In this document: in pieces, positions 2,876-31,768 of the stretch
Layout of the letters: each line of letters starts with the position of its first letter
How positions within the stretch are numbered: position 1 is the stretch's first letter
DNA from: a virus
Length of the DNA stretch: 34,231 nucleotides
IMG/VR virus record: IMGVR_UViG_3300030102_004767
Location: 1-34,231 of that record
Reading direction: 5' to 3' (one strand)
Notes under the pieces: model-generated
Seen by the model: only the letters and a program-made list of their open reading frames with translations
Database searches by the model: none
Told to the model about the DNA's origin: nothing
Position numbers and translations under genes: made by a program

Positions 2876-3439
2876 ATGACAGTCCCAGAAAAAGTTAAAA
2901 TCAACGTTAGAGTACACGAACAGTTAATGGCCGTTCGGGAAGAAGTTCTAGTTAATTCAAAGGAAATGTCCGGTGAAAATAAATATCAAGGTTTTAAATA
3001 CTATCAATTAGTAGATTTTATGCCTGCTTTGATACAAAGCCTTAGAAAAAACGGATTATCTTATGTTGAAAATTTTAGCCCTACAGAGGCTTCGTTAACA
3101 GTTATCGACAAACAAAGCGGCAGTTATGTTACAACTACTTGCCCTATTGATTATTCTCATTTAAAAGGTTCTTCCCCGATGCAATCGATAGGCGCTTCCA
3201 TGACTTATGCGAGGCGTTATTTGTGGGTCAGTTTATTAGGGTTAGTAGAATATGACCCTAAGAACGGCGGCGATGTTGACCTTGACCAACTTGATCAAAG
3301 CAAGTCAGCTATTGACCCACAAGCTAAAACACCTCAATACGTTCAAAAACATGGACAGACTCCTAACAATGTTATGGAAAAACTACAAGCAATAAGAACA
3401 CAAAACCTTGAAAAACGGGGGAACAATAATGATTCATGA
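2876..3439 (+). CDS. erf: ERF-family single-strand DNA annealing protein
   Basis: The protein is 187 aa. It matches the ERF superfamily of phage single-strand annealing proteins, which pair complementary strands during recombination and genome circularisation. The family core is present: YQGFKYYQLVDFMPAL at about residues 37-52, and the characteristic MQSIGASMTYARRYLW at about 102-117. The C-terminal 55 residues are low-complexity and polar, as is common in this family. The ATG is preceded by GAGGAG. Its 3' end overlaps the YqaJ exonuclease gene by 11 bases, forming the classic annealase-exonuclease pair. Confidence 0.9.
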   Translation: MTVPEKVKINVRVHEQLMAVREEVLVNSKEMSGENKYQGFKYYQLVDFMPALIQSLRKNGLSYVENFSPTEASLTVIDKQSGSYVTTTCPIDYSHLKGSSPMQSIGASMTYARRYLWVSLLGLVEYDPKNGGDVDLDQLDQSKSAIDPQAKTPQYVQKHGQTPNNVMEKLQAIRTQNLEKRGNNNDS

Positions 3440-26219: not shown

Positions 26220-26304
26220 TCAGTAGTTGCTCCAACGCTTCTATGCGTTTTTCTAGTTCATCTATACGTTTTTGAGGGTTTAACCCTTGTTTTTCTAGTA
26301 TCAT
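26149..26304 (-). CDS. Small coiled-coil protein between terminase and portal
   Basis: This 51-aa frame starts at an ATG overlapping the terminase stop (ATGA) and reads MILEKQGLNPQKRIDELEKR with heptad-like RIEALEQLLNERK. Its last 23 codons overlap the first 71 bases of the portal gene in another frame. The leucine/glutamate heptads and the coupled start support a real gene; the C-terminal part may be filler forced by the overlap. Confidence 0.55.
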   Translation of the reverse strand: MILEKQGLNPQKRIDELEKRIEALEQLLNERKQTKNNSSSRTGLSNRVHRK

Positions 26305-27554
26305 ACAACCCACCTATGGTTAGGTTGCGGTAAATGACCCCAGTTTTCGTTGGTCATAAACTCGCAACTGGTACATAGATACCTTAAACAATCGGCGGCG
26401 TGGCTGTGTTCGTCATGCATTGGGCTTGAAGGTTCGCCCGCGCTGTTAATTGTTCTGCGGTATCTTTTTATATGGTTTACTAAGTCTTTGGTCTTTTCTT
26501 TATCAAACCAAATCCTCGGCATAACCATGCGAGTCTTCATTATACCCTGTTCAACGTCCATGCGACCTAAAGTAAAAACATCTCTACCCATGCCGCGTAG
26601 CATTTCCTCGGTGCTTTTGCCGTGTTTAAAATCTTTATGAGTAGCATCGTGAGGCAGATAATCTGTACCCCAGTTCCAATCTCTTGTTTCTAGTTCTTTT
26701 ATGTAGCTTTCTAAGGTTCTGTGGCTGTCCTCTATAAAATCAATAATCCGTAACTCTGAAGCGGCCACTTGAACCATTATGATCGCCATGTTGTCATTCC
26801 ACCCTAAATCCCACACAGTGTGTACTAGCAACTGTGGGTCATACGGGACGTTGCGTATTCTGCCCTCTGATATGACGTCTTGTATTTCTTGGGTATAGAT
26901 TGCGCCTTCTACAGTTGGCCGGCATTTACCTTCCCAGACTGTTAAATAACCTACGGGGTCGCGTACTTTCCATTGTTTGCGTTCTTTTTCTAACTCAACC
27001 GGAAAAAATGGGTTGTCATCATAATTGACCTGTACAACCCAACTATCCTCAGGGGGGGTTTCAACAAAACGCTGATACGTTGGGTCAGTGTCTAGTTCAG
27101 GGTTAAAAGAAAGCCAAATCTGACTGCCGTCTTTTCGTATTGTTGGGATTAAAATATCCCACGATTTATTCGTTACAACTTGAGCTTCTTCGACCCAACA
27201 AATATCTGTTCCTTCTAAACTTTTTAAATTGGCTACCCCTTGTTGCCGTATACCAATGAACGTTATCTCCGAGCCGTTTCTGCCCAGTATTTTTTGTTCT
27301 TGTGCTTCAAACGCATTGTGCAACCCCATGTAACCTATTTGGTCTTTCAATAACCGGTGAACCGATTCTTGTATTGATTTTTGAGTTTCCCTAGCACATA
27401 ACACCCGTAAAGGCCGTTCCGCACACATAGCGATAATTGCACGAGCAATCGTCCATGATTTACCACTTCCCCGCCCGCCGTACAAAACCTTGTGTCGTTT
27501 TGGTTTAAATATCGGGAGCAACTTTTTTGGAATCCGTAAGGCGAACTTGCTAAT
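26301..27554 (-). CDS. terL: Terminase large subunit
   Basis: The protein is 417 aa if it starts with ATT at 27554. It is a Terminase_3-type packaging motor and nuclease. Counting from the TTG at 27521, Walker A is GGRGSGKSW (15-23), Walker B is ICWVEEA (107-113), the coupling motif is SFNP (138-141), and nuclease acidic residues are D238 (VWDLGW), D292 and D377 (EHSHAAD). The family N-terminus (RIPKKLLPIFKPKRHK) extends upstream of that TTG, where no ATG, GTG or TTG exists. A perfect GGAGGT lies seven bases before an ATT codon, so initiation at ATT is proposed. The small terminase gene ends at the same point. Confidence 0.88.
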   Translation of the reverse strand: MSKFALRIPKKLLPIFKPKRHKVLYGGRGSGKSWTIARAIIAMCAERPLRVLCARETQKSIQESVHRLLKDQIGYMGLHNAFEAQEQKILGRNGSEITFIGIRQQGVANLKSLEGTDICWVEEAQVVTNKSWDILIPTIRKDGSQIWLSFNPELDTDPTYQRFVETPPEDSWVVQVNYDDNPFFPVELEKERKQWKVRDPVGYLTVWEGKCRPTVEGAIYTQEIQDVISEGRIRNVPYDPQLLVHTVWDLGWNDNMAIIMVQVAASELRIIDFIEDSHRTLESYIKELETRDWNWGTDYLPHDATHKDFKHGKSTEEMLRGMGRDVFTLGRMDVEQGIMKTRMVMPRIWFDKEKTKDLVNHIKRYRRTINSAGEPSSPMHDEHSHAADCLRYLCTSCEFMTNENWGHLPQPNHRWVV

Positions 27555-27916
27555 TAGTCTACCTCCACTCCAACTACTTCTATGCTTGTCGTTATTTCTA
27601 TTGGGTCGCCATTTGCCCCTACAAGCTCATTAACCTGTCTTTCTTTCCAGCCTGCTCTGGTCTTGAGCCAAAACATTTGGGCTGATGTGTTGCCGTTTTT
27701 TGCTTGGTCAAAAAGGCTTTTAGCGATTTGCGCATTAGCATCTATACGCCCGTCATCTAGTTCTTTTTTGTAGTACTTTGTCAGCGTGTCGGCTGATATG
27801 TCCATCTTGCTTGCTATATCCTCATGCGTAACCCCAACCGCCGACAACGTTCTTGCCATTGTTCTTTTTTCGGTAGTCGGCACATGGGCAGGTCTTCCTC
27901 TGCTTGCATTTGCCAT
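27554..27916 (-). CDS. Terminase small subunit-like DNA-binding protein
   Basis: The protein is 120 aa with an N-terminal helix-turn-helix (about residues 18-50: RTMARTLSAVGVTHEDIASK then MDISADTLTKYYKKEL), a central oligomerisation helix (ANAQIAKSLFDQAKNGNTSA) and a beta-prone tail. This is the usual form of small terminase subunits that recognise the packaging site, and it directly precedes the large subunit. The start has CCGGAG upstream. A general regulator is the alternative, but the position argues strongly for terminase. Confidence 0.78.
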   Translation of the reverse strand: MANASRGRPAHVPTTEKRTMARTLSAVGVTHEDIASKMDISADTLTKYYKKELDDGRIDANAQIAKSLFDQAKNGNTSAQMFWLKTRAGWKERQVNELVGANGDPIEITTSIEVVGVEVD

Positions 27917-27934: not shown

Positions 27935-28717
27935 TTACATAAATTTTTGCAATCCATTGATTGTGTAAAAAACTAAACTGTTCCTATAACCGCCTAAATT
28001 TACTGAATTAATAGGCGTTACCCCGTGCATATTAGCATAAGCCGGATAAACCAGTAAGGAATTATCGCTGTTTTCAATAACTAAACCATATTCGGGAACG
28101 TGTAAATGCGCTCCTAATACCTTTTTTTTTACTGAAAAAATCAAATTAACACAGCCTTTTAAATTACCCCTGTCTTGATGATAAGGCGCGGCGATGTTGT
28201 AATTTGATATACTGCTTGAAAATAATTCTGTTAAACCCAGTCGTTCCGGTACATTTTCTTTCACTAATTGTTTTTGCTTGCTGTATTGCTCGGGCATATA
28301 CTTTTCTATAAGTTTCTCCCCCGCCCTACACAGTAACAACATAGCCTTTACAAAAGGTTGGGCGCTTTTTAATCCATGTATTGTTGTAGTTCTAGCGTAG
28401 TTTCTTCTCATGTGCGCTCTTGGCACCGCCGCTCCTAATACAACGCTGTACTGTTCAACCCATTCTTCTCCTTTTGCTATGGCTTGTTTGCGTGTACCTC
28501 TGTTCATTTTAGTTTTAGGTACATTAGCCGACCTGAGTTCAGTATCAGCTATAGCAATTAAATTGGTTATATTCGGTGGTAAATCATTTATATAAAACCC
28601 CACAGGCGCATCGTCTTTCATAAAGATGCTAGTTTCTGCGATGTTTGCCTCTAGTTTTTTAACCTTTGTGCCAAATTTTTCTGGGTATTTTTGACTTTCA
28701 AGTTCGATAATATTCAT
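27935..28717 (-). CDS. TET/JBP-family 2-oxoglutarate/Fe(II) dioxygenase (DNA pyrimidine hydroxylase)
   Basis: The protein is 260 aa. It has the TET/JBP double-stranded beta-helix signature: H180 and D182 in AAPYHQDRGN, the distal H231 in YANMHGVTP, and R245 in LGGYRNSLVFYT, which would hold iron and 2-oxoglutarate. The N-terminal half carries VPRAHMRRNYARTTTIHGLK, a family-like basic segment. TET/JBP enzymes oxidise the 5-methyl group of 5-methylcytosine or thymine in DNA to hydroxymethyl. Its ATG overlaps the stop of the glycosyltransferase gene (ATGA), so product and next enzyme are coexpressed. All expected catalytic residues are present. Substrate base cannot be told from sequence. Confidence 0.85.
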   Translation of the reverse strand: MNIIELESQKYPEKFGTKVKKLEANIAETSIFMKDDAPVGFYINDLPPNITNLIAIADTELRSANVPKTKMNRGTRKQAIAKGEEWVEQYSVVLGAAVPRAHMRRNYARTTTIHGLKSAQPFVKAMLLLCRAGEKLIEKYMPEQYSKQKQLVKENVPERLGLTELFSSSISNYNIAAPYHQDRGNLKGCVNLIFSVKKKVLGAHLHVPEYGLVIENSDNSLLVYPAYANMHGVTPINSVNLGGYRNSLVFYTINGLQKFM

Positions 28718-29493
28718 ATCTTTAACTTGGGCAAGTTCTTTGTCTGGTCATGCAATCGCACTTCCGGATATTTACCCTTGGCGTTTTTTCTTTTGCAGTG
28801 CAACGGAAATGTTTTCAACAACCATTGAACCGCCTTTTCTTCATATTCTACTGTTCTGTAATTTTGTATTCCTCCAGATTCAGAATAATACTTTGTGTCC
28901 GGCGCTATGTAGTTATATCTGACCACCTTGTTATGTGCTAGATAATACCTAATAGAGCGTTCAAAATCCTCTTTCCCATACTCCGGTTCGGTTGAAACGT
29001 ATGCAAATTTTTCATGAGCATTTATCCACCCATAAAAACAAGCCACGATGTACTTTAAATTTGTTGAAATGTTTTGTTTTAAAAAATAAGGGTTGTTTAC
29101 AGGGTTGATTCCCCATATTTTTGCCTTGTGTTGTTCTGTTGTTTTAAACGCCTCTTTTATAAATTTATCCAACTCAATCAATAACTTAGTAGACTTATCA
29201 TCTACTTTTTGCACCACAGCATTAATGTCGTCATCAATTCCTACTATGTTTGTGCCTTCCTCATAGTAATCAACTATAAAGTTCCTTTGTGTGTTGACGT
29301 GTTTTTTGCCCGTTGTAATTATATTTACATTGAAAGGGGCAAGGCTTTTTTCGTAGGCGGCCTTTTCTTCTGGGTCGCTTAAAAATACATCAATCTTGCT
29401 AAAATCTATATCTGTTTTGGATAAGTACCCCAACGTTTTTTTAACAATCGTTTCGCTTCTTGATATGCTCGGGATTGCTATTCTGTAGGTCAT
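28714..29493 (-). CDS. TET-associated glycosyltransferase (TAGT)
   Basis: The protein is 259 aa and matches the TAGT family of GT-A-like enzymes predicted to glycosylate TET/JBP-made hydroxymethyl-pyrimidines in DNA. Features in order: RIAIPSISRSETIVKKTLGYL N-terminal strand, VNTQRNFIVDYY (66-77), the metal/sugar-nucleotide motif GIDDDIN with D87-D89, the IWGINPVNNPYF block (126-137), YGKEDFERSIRYYL (172-185) with E175-D176 as candidate catalytic acids, and SGGIQNYR. It overlaps the ParB-like gene upstream and the TET gene downstream by 4 bases each. The sugar donor cannot be read from sequence. The kinetoplastid base-J glucosyltransferase was predicted to be related to this family. Confidence 0.85.
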   Translation of the reverse strand: MTYRIAIPSISRSETIVKKTLGYLSKTDIDFSKIDVFLSDPEEKAAYEKSLAPFNVNIITTGKKHVNTQRNFIVDYYEEGTNIVGIDDDINAVVQKVDDKSTKLLIELDKFIKEAFKTTEQHKAKIWGINPVNNPYFLKQNISTNLKYIVACFYGWINAHEKFAYVSTEPEYGKEDFERSIRYYLAHNKVVRYNYIAPDTKYYSESGGIQNYRTVEYEEKAVQWLLKTFPLHCKRKNAKGKYPEVRLHDQTKNLPKLKI

Positions 29494-30077
29494 TGTTGGT
29501 ATTTTTCTTGTAAAAACTCCACAATCGTCATACCTAAATTATCATCCTGACTTTTAGCAAACGATAACACTTCGTAAGCCTTTGGGTAATCTTCCACAGT
29601 AAAAGTAATTTCTATAGCCCGTCTGGCCGACCTTTCTAGTTCTTGTAGCTTAACGTCATCAGCTTCATCAAGAACGCTGTAATCCATAGGTTTGACTGTT
29701 AGTTCTTCTAAATCAAAACCAGTTAAAGCTGTATCAAATTCTAAACTTGCTAACTCCTGCAGTTCCTTAGTAACTATATCGTAATTGTACGAACCATTTA
29801 ACGCTATTTGGTTGTCAGCTAAGATGTAAGCCTTTTTTTCAACGTCGGTCAAATGATCTAACCTGATACAAGGTACTGTGTCTAATCCTAATTTTTTTGC
29901 CGCTAAAACCCTGCCGTGGCCTGCTAAAATTCCGCTTTCTTTATCAACAAGCACGGGGTTGTTAAATTTAAACTTTTTAATTGATGCCGCTATCTGCTCA
30001 ACCTGTTCGTCTGAATGCTCTCTAGCATTGTTCGCATAAGGTATAAGGCTTTCAACTTTTATTTGTTCTATTTTCAT
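29490..30077 (-). CDS. ParB-like nuclease-domain protein of the modification cassette
   Basis: The protein is 195 aa. Residues 1-100 form a ParB/Srx-type domain with VESLIPYANNAREHSDEQVE, KFNNPVLVDKESGILAGHGR (G53-H54-G55-R56) and ILADNQIAL. This version is the one normally fused ahead of DNA adenine/cytosine methylases (as in COG1475-type fusions), including the LTGFDLEEL linker that usually leads into the methylase. Here no methylase follows: the rest (about 130-195) is a short helical tail. The ATG overlaps the upstream stop (TAATG) and was chosen over an ATG 30 bases upstream. It may target or regulate the modifying enzymes. Confidence 0.75.
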   Translation of the reverse strand: MKIEQIKVESLIPYANNAREHSDEQVEQIAASIKKFKFNNPVLVDKESGILAGHGRVLAAKKLGLDTVPCIRLDHLTDVEKKAYILADNQIALNGSYNYDIVTKELQELASLEFDTALTGFDLEELTVKPMDYSVLDEADDVKLQELERSARRAIEITFTVEDYPKAYEVLSFAKSQDDNLGMTIVEFLQEKYQQ

Positions 30078-30262
30078 TAATGCACTAACGCGTTGATAAC
30101 TTTCCAATTAAGGTGTCCTGAGTATTTTGCATGCGCCGTCATTCGTTCATGCATGAAACGTTTAGTCAACCATGTGTCGCTTTTGTGTATTCTGTTGCCA
30201 TACCGCAAGTCAACACGATCGTTTATTAAATCGTCTAAATACTTCCAATCTGCATTGGTCAT
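30077..30262 (-). CDS. Small hypothetical protein preceding the ParB-like gene
   Basis: The protein is 61 aa (MTNADWKYLDDLINDRVDLR, later RIHKSDTWLTKRFMHERMTA). It is helical and rich in basic and aromatic residues. Start and stop overlap the neighbours (TGATG upstream, TAATG downstream), so it belongs to the coupled run that leads into the modification genes. No family was recognised. Confidence 0.65.
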   Translation of the reverse strand: MTNADWKYLDDLINDRVDLRYGNRIHKSDTWLTKRFMHERMTAHAKYSGHLNWKVINALVH

Positions 30263-30558
30263 CAACAATCCCACTTTCTTAACGCTTTGTTAATTCTACT
30301 ATCCGGATCGTTAGCTGTTTTGCTACTTGTCAACTTTTTTTTCATTCCCTTCATTCTAGCACAAAAAGATTTGCGTCTTGCGGCGGCTTTTTTACTTTTT
30401 TTTGCTTGTTTTGCGCTCACCGGCGGTTTTAAATTACCACCCGTTTTGTTGTTGTAATATTTACGTCCGGCGGCCGACAACCCCCCAGAGGGGTTTTTAT
30501 GCTTTTTTCTTATTCTTAGAGCCACTTTTCTTTTTACCTTTCCCCAGTAAATCCGCAT
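30262..30558 (-). CDS. DUF6321-like small basic protein
   Basis: The protein carries the pattern KNPSGGLSAAGRKYYNNKTG, then NLKPPV, RRKSFCARMKGMKKKLT and a closing INKALRKWDC. I associate this pattern with the DUF6321 family found in marine phages and large DNA viruses. Function is unknown; the high K/R content suggests nucleic-acid binding. The N-terminus is uncertain: ATG at 30558 is used here, giving 98 aa and a 62-base overlap with the DUF5824 gene. ATG at 30591 or GTG at 30525 are alternatives, and the conserved core is kept in all three. Confidence 0.7.
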   Translation of the reverse strand: MRIYWGKVKRKVALRIRKKHKNPSGGLSAAGRKYYNNKTGGNLKPPVSAKQAKKSKKAAARRKSFCARMKGMKKKLTSSKTANDPDSRINKALRKWDC

Positions 30559-30784
30559 CTGCTTTGCGTGCGCCGCCTTTGCCGGTTGCAAAACTTTTCA
30601 CTCTGCCCATAGCCCATTGTTGCGGCGATGTGCCTGCGCGGCTTCCTGAACTGTAATAAGCGCCCATACCACGGCGGTAGACCTTCTCTAACGTTGATTT
30701 GGGAATGCCGTATTTTTTGCTATATGAAGCGATACTACTACTTTTTGTTCCCTTTGAAGCCTTTTTTGTAGTTTTTCGTGCCAC
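30497..30784 (-). CDS. DUF5824-like small basic protein
   Basis: The protein is 95 aa. The core, YSKKYGIPKSTLEKVYRRGM followed by GAYYSSGSRAGTSPQQWAMG and RVKSFATGKGGARKADADLL, is the DUF5824 signature found widely in marine phages and giant viruses. Both ends are lysine-rich. No biochemical role is known; DNA binding is likely from charge. It overlaps genes at both ends in this compact cluster of basic proteins. Confidence 0.82.
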   Translation of the reverse strand: MARKTTKKASKGTKSSSIASYSKKYGIPKSTLEKVYRRGMGAYYSSGSRAGTSPQQWAMGRVKSFATGKGGARKADADLLGKGKKKSGSKNKKKA

Positions 30785-30962
30785 TTTTTATCCTTTTTTT
30801 TGCAATTTTATTCATTTCGGCGATCGTTAGCTTGCCTTCCTTATACTTTTTTTGTGTAGAAAGGATTTCTTTTTCTGATGCTTTTTTGTTTTTCGAACCT
30901 TTTAGATAAACAAGAGGCACGCCTTTTTTACTTTTGCTGACTTTTTGAAACTTTCTTGCCAT
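30738..30962 (-). CDS. Lysine-rich small basic protein
   Basis: The protein is 74 aa (MARKFQKVSKSKKGVPLVYL and KGSKNKKASEKEILSTQKKY), with about one lysine in every three to four residues. The GVPLVYLKGSKNKKASEKE part resembles short proteins seen beside DUF5824 genes; no function is known. The ATG at 30962 is preferred; an ATG at 31010 would extend it wholly inside the upstream gene. Overlaps on both sides reach 35-47 bases. Confidence 0.6.
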   Translation of the reverse strand: MARKFQKVSKSKKGVPLVYLKGSKNKKASEKEILSTQKKYKEGKLTIAEMNKIAKKRIKSGTKNYKKGFKGNKK

Positions 30963-31080
30963 TTTTTGCACTTTTCTTAGGTTTTGGACCATACGCAACT
31001 TTTTTATCAACTGGTACGGGGTTTTTGCTTAACAAATATGCCTGCATTTTTGCTACATCATCTTTTTTTAGAGTTTGCAT
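30928..31080 (-). CDS. Small basic protein following the 236-aa conserved gene
   Basis: This 50-aa protein reads MQTLKKDDVAKMQAYLLSKN, then PVPVDKKVAYGPKPKKSAKN and a lysine-rich end. AGAGG lies eight bases before the ATG. It overlaps the gene upstream by 23 bases and the one downstream by 35. It forms part of the run of tiny basic proteins; function unknown. Confidence 0.68.
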   Translation of the reverse strand: MQTLKKDDVAKMQAYLLSKNPVPVDKKVAYGPKPKKSAKNGKKVSKSQQK

Positions 31081-31768
31081 TTTTTTCCTCTGCGTACAAA
31101 TTATTAAAAGTTACTTCGGGGTCTGTGTAGCTGTCATCTTGCTCTGCACAGTATGAATGGTTGTTAGGTTTAAAATCAGGCGCACCCTCTCCTGTGAGCC
31201 AGTACGCCGGCGATGTAACGCGCACCCTATTATTAGGTACAGCAACAACATTGCCCTTGTGTTCGCCCTCTGTTAAAACCACGATGTGGCTTTGTTTGTG
31301 CTGAGCGGGGTCTTCTGCCACTGTTGACTGCGCATAATCGACTGTAAAAAAGTATCTCCCTAACAGCCATTTGCCATCAACCTTACATATCCATGGACTA
31401 GGTTTTAGCCTTGAGTATGCGGTTACAGAGTGATAGTAACTACTGCAGTCCCACGGCTGTACAACGTGCGTTGGCATGCGTTCAGGCCATTCATCTAGCG
31501 GTATGTCGCCGACTAAGGCTACAATCGGCATTTTTGCCCACATAGCACCGCCATGTACATTTGGTGTTTCGCCATCATCTGCTTCGTAGCCTGTAAAAAC
31601 GACATGAAATGCCAGAGATTTATCCGGTTCTGTTCTAACCCCGCAAACAATAGCGTGTATAAACTCGCCTTTGTAAGTATCTTCTAATCCATTTGTAAAC
31701 TCTTTGCGCACCCAAACCTTAAACAGCGGTATATTCTGTTCGTATAGGTCGCTGTTTAAATAGGGCAA
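31058..31768 (-). CDS. Conserved marine-phage protein of unknown function
   Basis: The protein is 236 aa. The start (LNSDLYEQNIPLFKVWVRKE) and blocks such as SLAFHVVFTGYEADDG, AKMPIVALVGD, VVQPWDCSSYYHSVTAYSRL and GKWLLGRYFFTVDYA match a protein I recall as widespread in cyanophage and pelagiphage late regions, always uncharacterised. The first codon is TTG, placed directly after the stop of the 43-aa gene (TAATTG), with GAAGAG as a possible binding site. It opens the small-protein part of the late operon. Confidence 0.72.
   Translation of the reverse strand: MPYLNSDLYEQNIPLFKVWVRKEFTNGLEDTYKGEFIHAIVCGVRTEPDKSLAFHVVFTGYEADDGETPNVHGGAMWAKMPIVALVGDIPLDEWPERMPTHVVQPWDCSSYYHSVTAYSRLKPSPWICKVDGKWLLGRYFFTVDYAQSTVAEDPAQHKQSHIVVLTEGEHKGNVVAVPNNRVRVTSPAYWLTGEGAPDFKPNNHSYCAEQDDSYTDPEVTFNNLYAEEKNANSKKR

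Follow-up and report, generated by a model that had tools for sequence, protein, structure and literature searches.

The window (the whole stretch of DNA analysed, 34,231 bases from an uncultured virus of bacteria; IMG/VR record IMGVR_UViG_3300030102_004767) carries a ParB_N, TAGT and Tet_JBP gene trio at positions 27935 to 30077 on the minus strand. In order of transcription, the genes encode a ParB_N protein (195 aa, 29490..30077; a TTG-started form of 205 aa is possible), a TAGT glycosyltransferase (259 aa, 28714..29493), and a TET/JBP Fe(II)/2-oxoglutarate dioxygenase (260 aa, 27935..28717). The coding strand reads ATGA at both junctions (29493-29490, ParB/TAGT; 28717-28714, TAGT/TET), and these coordinates and overlaps match the three coupled genes described by a first-pass annotation of this DNA. 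Its placement of the cassette directly before the small terminase gene also held: TerS (27554..27916, minus strand; phrog_309, 4.2e-23) starts 18 bases past the TET stop and is followed by TerL (26301..27521, minus strand; Terminase_3, 2.2e-35), both taken as context, with TerS outside the predicted chemistry. The ParB_N, TAGT, and Tet_JBP families recur jointly in phages of other lineages, so their grouping is more than chance.

Just 5′ of the cassette lie three overlapping small lysine-rich open reading frames (30262-31010) and, at 31058-31768, a 236-aa protein that matched phrog_3704 ("ferredoxin," 2.4e-29), a doubtful label, with no convincing Pfam domain. A tRNA-Gln called by ARAGORN (3237-3333, minus strand) falls inside a plus-strand coding frame (2876-3439) and is probably a false call. 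The record is classed linear and is therefore possibly a fragment, in which case a C5-methyltransferase could sit in the missing piece. Phages nearest by portal protein include a circular genome from Manatee Spring (34,712 bases) and Methylophilales phage Venkman (38.6 kb), and the missing share is probably small by that comparison. A host call from relatives was dropped, as only the backbone resembles Venkman and the Manatee Spring phages; metagenome bins with related cassettes were mixed (Oscillatoria, a betaproteobacterium, and Flavobacteriaceae).

The 260-aa protein matched Tet_JBP (PF12851) at 1.6e-11 (44.2 bits; Pfam cut-off, 34.9). Its H180-Q-D182, H231, and R245, corresponding to the HxD...H iron triad and the 2-oxoglutarate-binding arginine, had been noted as intact and proved invariant in alignments of 17 and 47 homologues. 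Sequence searches of the family against the PDB returned no match, and a fold search was therefore used, with a model built from the 47-sequence alignment (pLDDT, 95.1; pTM, 0.92). The model has the TET-type double-stranded beta-helix fold, and its 26 best PDB matches were all TET-family DNA dioxygenases (CcTET, human TET2, CMD1, and NgTET1), with FTO next. Profile and fold agree with the first-pass assignment to TET/JBP over other hydroxylase families, and the protein is predicted to be a base 5-methyl hydroxylase acting on DNA. The label "queuine tRNA-ribosyltransferase" carried by phrog_6059 and RefSeq homologues was rejected as a misannotation, with no queuine-enzyme domain and no Pfam support. 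In NC_020857.1, NC_020847.1, and Mycobacterium phage records, TETs bear that name and ParB-only proteins are called "DNA methylase"; both look misannotated.

The 259-aa protein matched TAGT (PF20691) at 1.9e-11 (44.8 bits; Pfam cut-off, 27.5) and phrog_842, a beta-glucosyl-HMC-alpha-glucosyltransferase family, at 2.1e-12. The DDD motif lies at residues 87-89, as first reported; D88, D89, D176, G207, and G208 were invariant in 25 sequences. A structural model (pLDDT, 91.2) matched GT-A glycosyltransferases in a Foldseek search of the PDB (best TarS, TarP, AvpGT, and RmlT), in keeping with the original TAGT assignment. From family and fold, the protein is predicted to put a sugar on a 5-hydroxymethyl base. 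A Tet_JBP protein was also found on 14 of 15 contigs of the closest TAGT relatives; these relatives (56 to 66% identical) adjoin another TET clade, itself behind ParB. Judged from these contigs, TAGT travels separately from TET.

Several observations beside TAGT genes concern the sugar. A PIG-L type deacetylase gene stands right after TAGT in two cultured actinophages (Acadian gp4, L126:2438-3025, PF02585 at 1.6e-10; Altadena "glucosaminyl deacetylase," L128:7463-8056), which suggests an N-acetyl amino sugar that is put on DNA and then deacetylated. Sugar-nucleotide-type genes (NTP-transferase-like and HAD/RIO-like) precede TAGT in two loci (L085 and L096, 7823-10001), and Synechococcus phage S-CBWM1 has a phosphatase and a glucose-1-phosphate thymidylyltransferase beside it (L129:5207-7139), hinting at phage-made non-glucose donors.

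Relatives of the window TET were encoded in at least 575 stretches of viral contigs, from which 120 loci were taken as the neighbourhood set; contig counts are inflated by near copies, and fragments can hide genes. Of the 120 loci, 110 include the sequence upstream of TET, and every one of them has ParB directly ahead of TET; the remaining 10 end within 0.92 kb. Between the two genes, a TAGT-cluster glycosyltransferase was found in 32 loci, alone or with other genes (some cluster members, L010, L065, and L084 among them, match no Pfam family themselves; nor do L071 and L116 in the ADDT cluster), and an FkbM-type methyltransferase in 23. Elsewhere the position was empty or held a P-loop kinase, in some loci accompanied by ADDT (amino acid:DNA transferase) and a GATase_6 protein. 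Six loci (L020, L024, and L027 to L030) lack an intervening tailoring gene: two successive ParB-like genes stand right before TET. On this gene content, the constant partner of TET is ParB, not TAGT, and the middle gene is an exchangeable slot, a point absent from the first-pass annotation.

Slot exchange was frequent: on a quick tree of 89 TETs, with long branches and with the window TET loosely placed, the slot label changed at least 34 times (possible minimum, 5). Closely related TETs had different slot genes, as in kinase (L013) versus TAGT (L014) at 97% identity, ADDT (L064) versus FkbM (L100) at 91%, and ADDT (L064 and L113) versus Pfam-verified TAGT (L085 and L077) at 78 to 79%. TET is unlikely to have switched base with every swap, and these pairs therefore indicate one TET product passed to alternative tailoring enzymes, including the thymidine-type ADDT. 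The role in DNA base hypermodification proposed at first reading is thus backed by conserved neighbourhoods.

Thymine and cytosine were weighed as the base. In a cytosine pathway, TET would oxidise 5mC supplied by the host or by an unseen phage C5-methyltransferase, and TAGT would glycosylate the 5hmC, as in T-even glucosylation. Phage TET activity was reportedly shown on 5mC by Burke et al. in 2021. In characterised phage TET systems, TET is paired with a C5-methyltransferase and with glycosyltransferases (PMC12730594), and in T6-like phages PF20691 enzymes are thought to act on glucosylated cytosine, as the second glucosylation of hmC (PMC13390438). Given that role and the presence of TAGT in 7 of 64 C5-methyltransferase loci, TAGT alone does not name the base. 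The nearest backbone relative of the window (MW202462) also encodes a C5-methyltransferase, without TET, which lends this pathway some further weight, as does the possibly fragmentary state of the window.

Against cytosine, C5-methyltransferase (PF00145) had no match in the window's 34,231 bases, a record that may be incomplete. Among ParB-TET records, 4 of 50 carried it, never in the cassette and no closer to TET than 3 kb; it was missing from all 45 contigs of a further TET set (part ParB linked, part ADDT linked) and from all 6 cultured ParB-TET phages. In the Melnitz-class clade, the true C5-TET class, by contrast, 35 of 35 records have it adjacent to TET, and ParB_N matches number 0 of 35. 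Across scored loci, C5-methyltransferase stood beside TET in 61 (ParB, 0; ADDT, 0), ParB in 149 (C5-methyltransferase, 0), and ADDT in 47 (C5-methyltransferase, 0). These loci are not all independent, since TETs of all classes formed only 34 clusters at 70% identity, of which 24 had ParB, 5 had C5-methyltransferase, and none had both.

ADDT (PF18724), which fills this slot next to close relatives of the TAGT-linked TETs, points to hmU; Mycobacterium phage Prince and Rhodococcus phage Tonitrus also have it in their ParB-TET cassettes. Published thymidine hypermodification (Lee et al. 2018 and 2022, cited in PMC11955845) employs a 5hmU kinase and ADDT/aGPT-PPlase enzymes. A thymidylate-synthase-family gene was found in 0 of 49 records, giving no indication that hydroxymethylation takes place at the nucleotide level. 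Because this TET class has no C5-cytosine methyltransferase with it and close relatives have ADDT in the slot, thymine-derived 5hmU is the more likely base; gene content thus favours thymine, and we regard the cytosine pathway as unlikely, if still deserving some weight. The first-pass annotation had expected a "hydroxymethyl-pyrimidine"; the prediction of a hypermodified base is kept, and the pyrimidine is narrowed to thymine-derived 5hmU as the likelier form by the scarcity of C5-methyltransferase and the slot shared with ADDT. No base analysis of the window phage or of a ParB-TET relative turned up.

Two candidate markers of the base were rejected. The residue three positions after the HxD aspartate is N in the window class and cultured actinophages and D in all C5-methyltransferase-linked TETs, but a D-type class (HYDAGD) with ParB-TAGT or ADDT-GATase and no C5-methyltransferase ruled it out. 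A P-loop kinase was discarded as a thymine marker, as related kinases also occur near C5-TET pairs. In MW202462, the nearest of the complete backbone relatives, the region upstream of the terminase (L282:6007-8245) holds a sugar-transferase fragment, an FkbM methyltransferase, and a 304-aa protein, without TET or ParB and with the C5-methyltransferase elsewhere; it is perhaps a different modification cassette.

The 195-aa protein matched ParB_N (PF02195) at 1.9e-6 (28.2 bits; Pfam cut-off, 26.3), bearing out the ParB-like domain of the first reading, and comprises an N-terminal ParB domain (residues ~1 to 128) and a conserved C-terminal region (~132 to 193). It also matched phrog_620 (7.3e-51) and, over residues 1 to 134, phrog_498 (DNA methyltransferase, 2.4e-47). 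Residues 1 to 127 matched PADLOC MTase_II (1.7e-35) and resemble the ParB domain of phage ParB-methyltransferase fusions; N17, R19, G53, R56, D88, and N89 were at least 93% conserved in 60 homologues. The fusion of this domain to DNA methyltransferases in phages suggests DNA targeting; ParB would most likely bind phage DNA or slide along it, bringing the enzymes there. Were ParB itself catalytic, as a ParB/sulfiredoxin-fold phosphotransferase or nuclease, it would activate the 5-hydroxymethyl group or nick DNA, with no targeting; a very weak match (E, 0.0097) to SerK, a serine kinase with the ParB fold, and the constancy of ParB, equal to that of TET even where the slot is empty, could be read in this way. 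We judge catalysis quite improbable, given that its best relatives of solved structure are Spo0J/ParB partition proteins, that the methyltransferase fusions speak for targeting, and that the kinase/ADDT variants carry a separate P-loop kinase.

Action of TET on RNA, tRNA, or host DNA instead of phage genomic DNA, with the terminase neighbourhood incidental, draws on the queuine label of several RefSeq homologues and on a cassette away from the terminase in Arthrobacter phage Altadena, but is very improbable, given best fold matches to DNA dioxygenases, a label without Pfam support, DNA-linked companions (ParB domains and ADDT), and no queuine-enzyme domain found.

The late expression proposed by the first-pass annotation would follow from strand and position only; a promoter and terminator scan of the window gave no excess over shuffles and thus no evidence for late timing. 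A terminase commonly adjoined the cassette (at least 31 of the 74 loci with room). Its adjacency is not required, because the Altadena cassette (ParB-TET-TAGT) has no terminase in the surrounding 12.5 kb. Timing linked to packaging and an anti-restriction function may apply to the window.

We consider it fairly probable that a widespread ParB and TET pair with an exchangeable tailoring gene forms a modular, post-replicative thymine hypermodification system, with hmU formed by TET, glycosylation by TAGT, and delivery by ParB. This reading is based, by sequence and structure, on the families, catalytic motifs, gene overlaps, ParB-TET pairing, slot swapping, and absent C5-methyltransferase and thymidylate-synthase-family genes; we infer thymine as the base, the sugar, the role of ParB, the timing, and the protective purpose. 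In the proposed sequence of events, ParB would bind or slide on phage DNA and bring TET and TAGT there, TET would hydroxylate the 5-methyl group of thymine already in the DNA to give 5-hydroxymethyluracil, and TAGT would move a sugar from a nucleotide sugar to the hmU hydroxyl, giving a base-J-like glycosyl-hmU. Sugars on virion DNA could then block host restriction or Cas nucleases. Such base-J-like chemistry is otherwise known from kinetoplastids and their relatives.

More tentatively, ParB-TET may be a general platform, in which a ParB clamp would load a thymine hydroxylase on replicated DNA and glycosyl-, methyl-, and aminoacyl-transfer enzymes would be exchanged, altering the surface chemistry of the genome, while the first step is kept, the product here being base-J-like glycosyl-hmU. 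If so, two phage TET roles could be told by neighbourhood alone (ParB-TET, thymine; C5-methyltransferase-TET, cytosine), and the prediction could be tested in cultured phages (Prochlorococcus MED4-117 and MED4-184 and Mycobacterium Acadian). Such frequent swapping of tailoring genes beside near-identical TETs resembles an arms race over the surface chemistry of DNA and, on this view, would offer new DNA-decorating enzymes for use in sequencing and labelling.

Associations of TET/JBP with TAGT were reportedly predicted by Iyer et al. in 2013; a limited literature search found no paper on the ParB-TAGT-TET arrangement. The kinetoplastid base J system (JBP1/2 and a J glucosyltransferase) resembles the predicted route from T through hmU to glycosyl-hmU in DNA (PMC10057400). 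It differs from the window in being eukaryotic and having no ParB. Its glycosyltransferase presumably also differs from the window TAGT. The class of Methylophilales phage Melnitz (C5-methyltransferase plus TET) likewise has a TET-family hydroxylase and, close by, tailoring enzymes that sometimes include TAGT, but is set apart by the adjacent C5-methyltransferase (35/35), the lack of ParB (0/35), and a cytosine substrate. Prochlorococcus phages MED4-117 and MED4-184 have ParB, a slot gene, TET, TerS, and TerL in the same order and place; their TET is the closest among cultured phages (41%) and their ParB shares 43% identity with that of the window, but FkbM methyltransferase replaces TAGT in the slot. 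Mycobacterium phage Acadian has the same three families (ParB gp1, TET gp2, and TAGT gp3), followed by PIG-L deacetylase gp4, TerS, and TerL; unlike the window, its order is ParB-TET-TAGT, its TET belongs to a distant clade, and the extra deacetylase, suggesting an amino sugar, has no adjacent counterpart in the window.

PMC11955845 presents genes 1 to 5 of Rhodococcus phage Tonitrus (including ParB-like, TET-like JBP, aGPT-Pplase2, and 5-hmU DNA kinase) as a predicted system of thymidine hypermodification. Tonitrus likewise has ParB and TET near the cassette start and no C5-methyltransferase in its complete genome. It differs from the window in ADDT/kinase tailoring in place of TAGT, a TET only 29% identical, and a terminase several genes further on; with its TET as query, no relatives were found in viral contigs. 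The window cassette combines ParB-like and TET-like genes without a C5-methyltransferase, as expected of a thymidine hypermodification system of the ParB-TET type, and neither 5hmU kinase nor ADDT/aGPT-PPlase was found in it. With TAGT in the kinase/ADDT slot, it is therefore not a member of the kinase/ADDT pathway; a predicted system with ParB, TET, ADDT, and kinase is already in the literature, and the window cassette is a TAGT variant.
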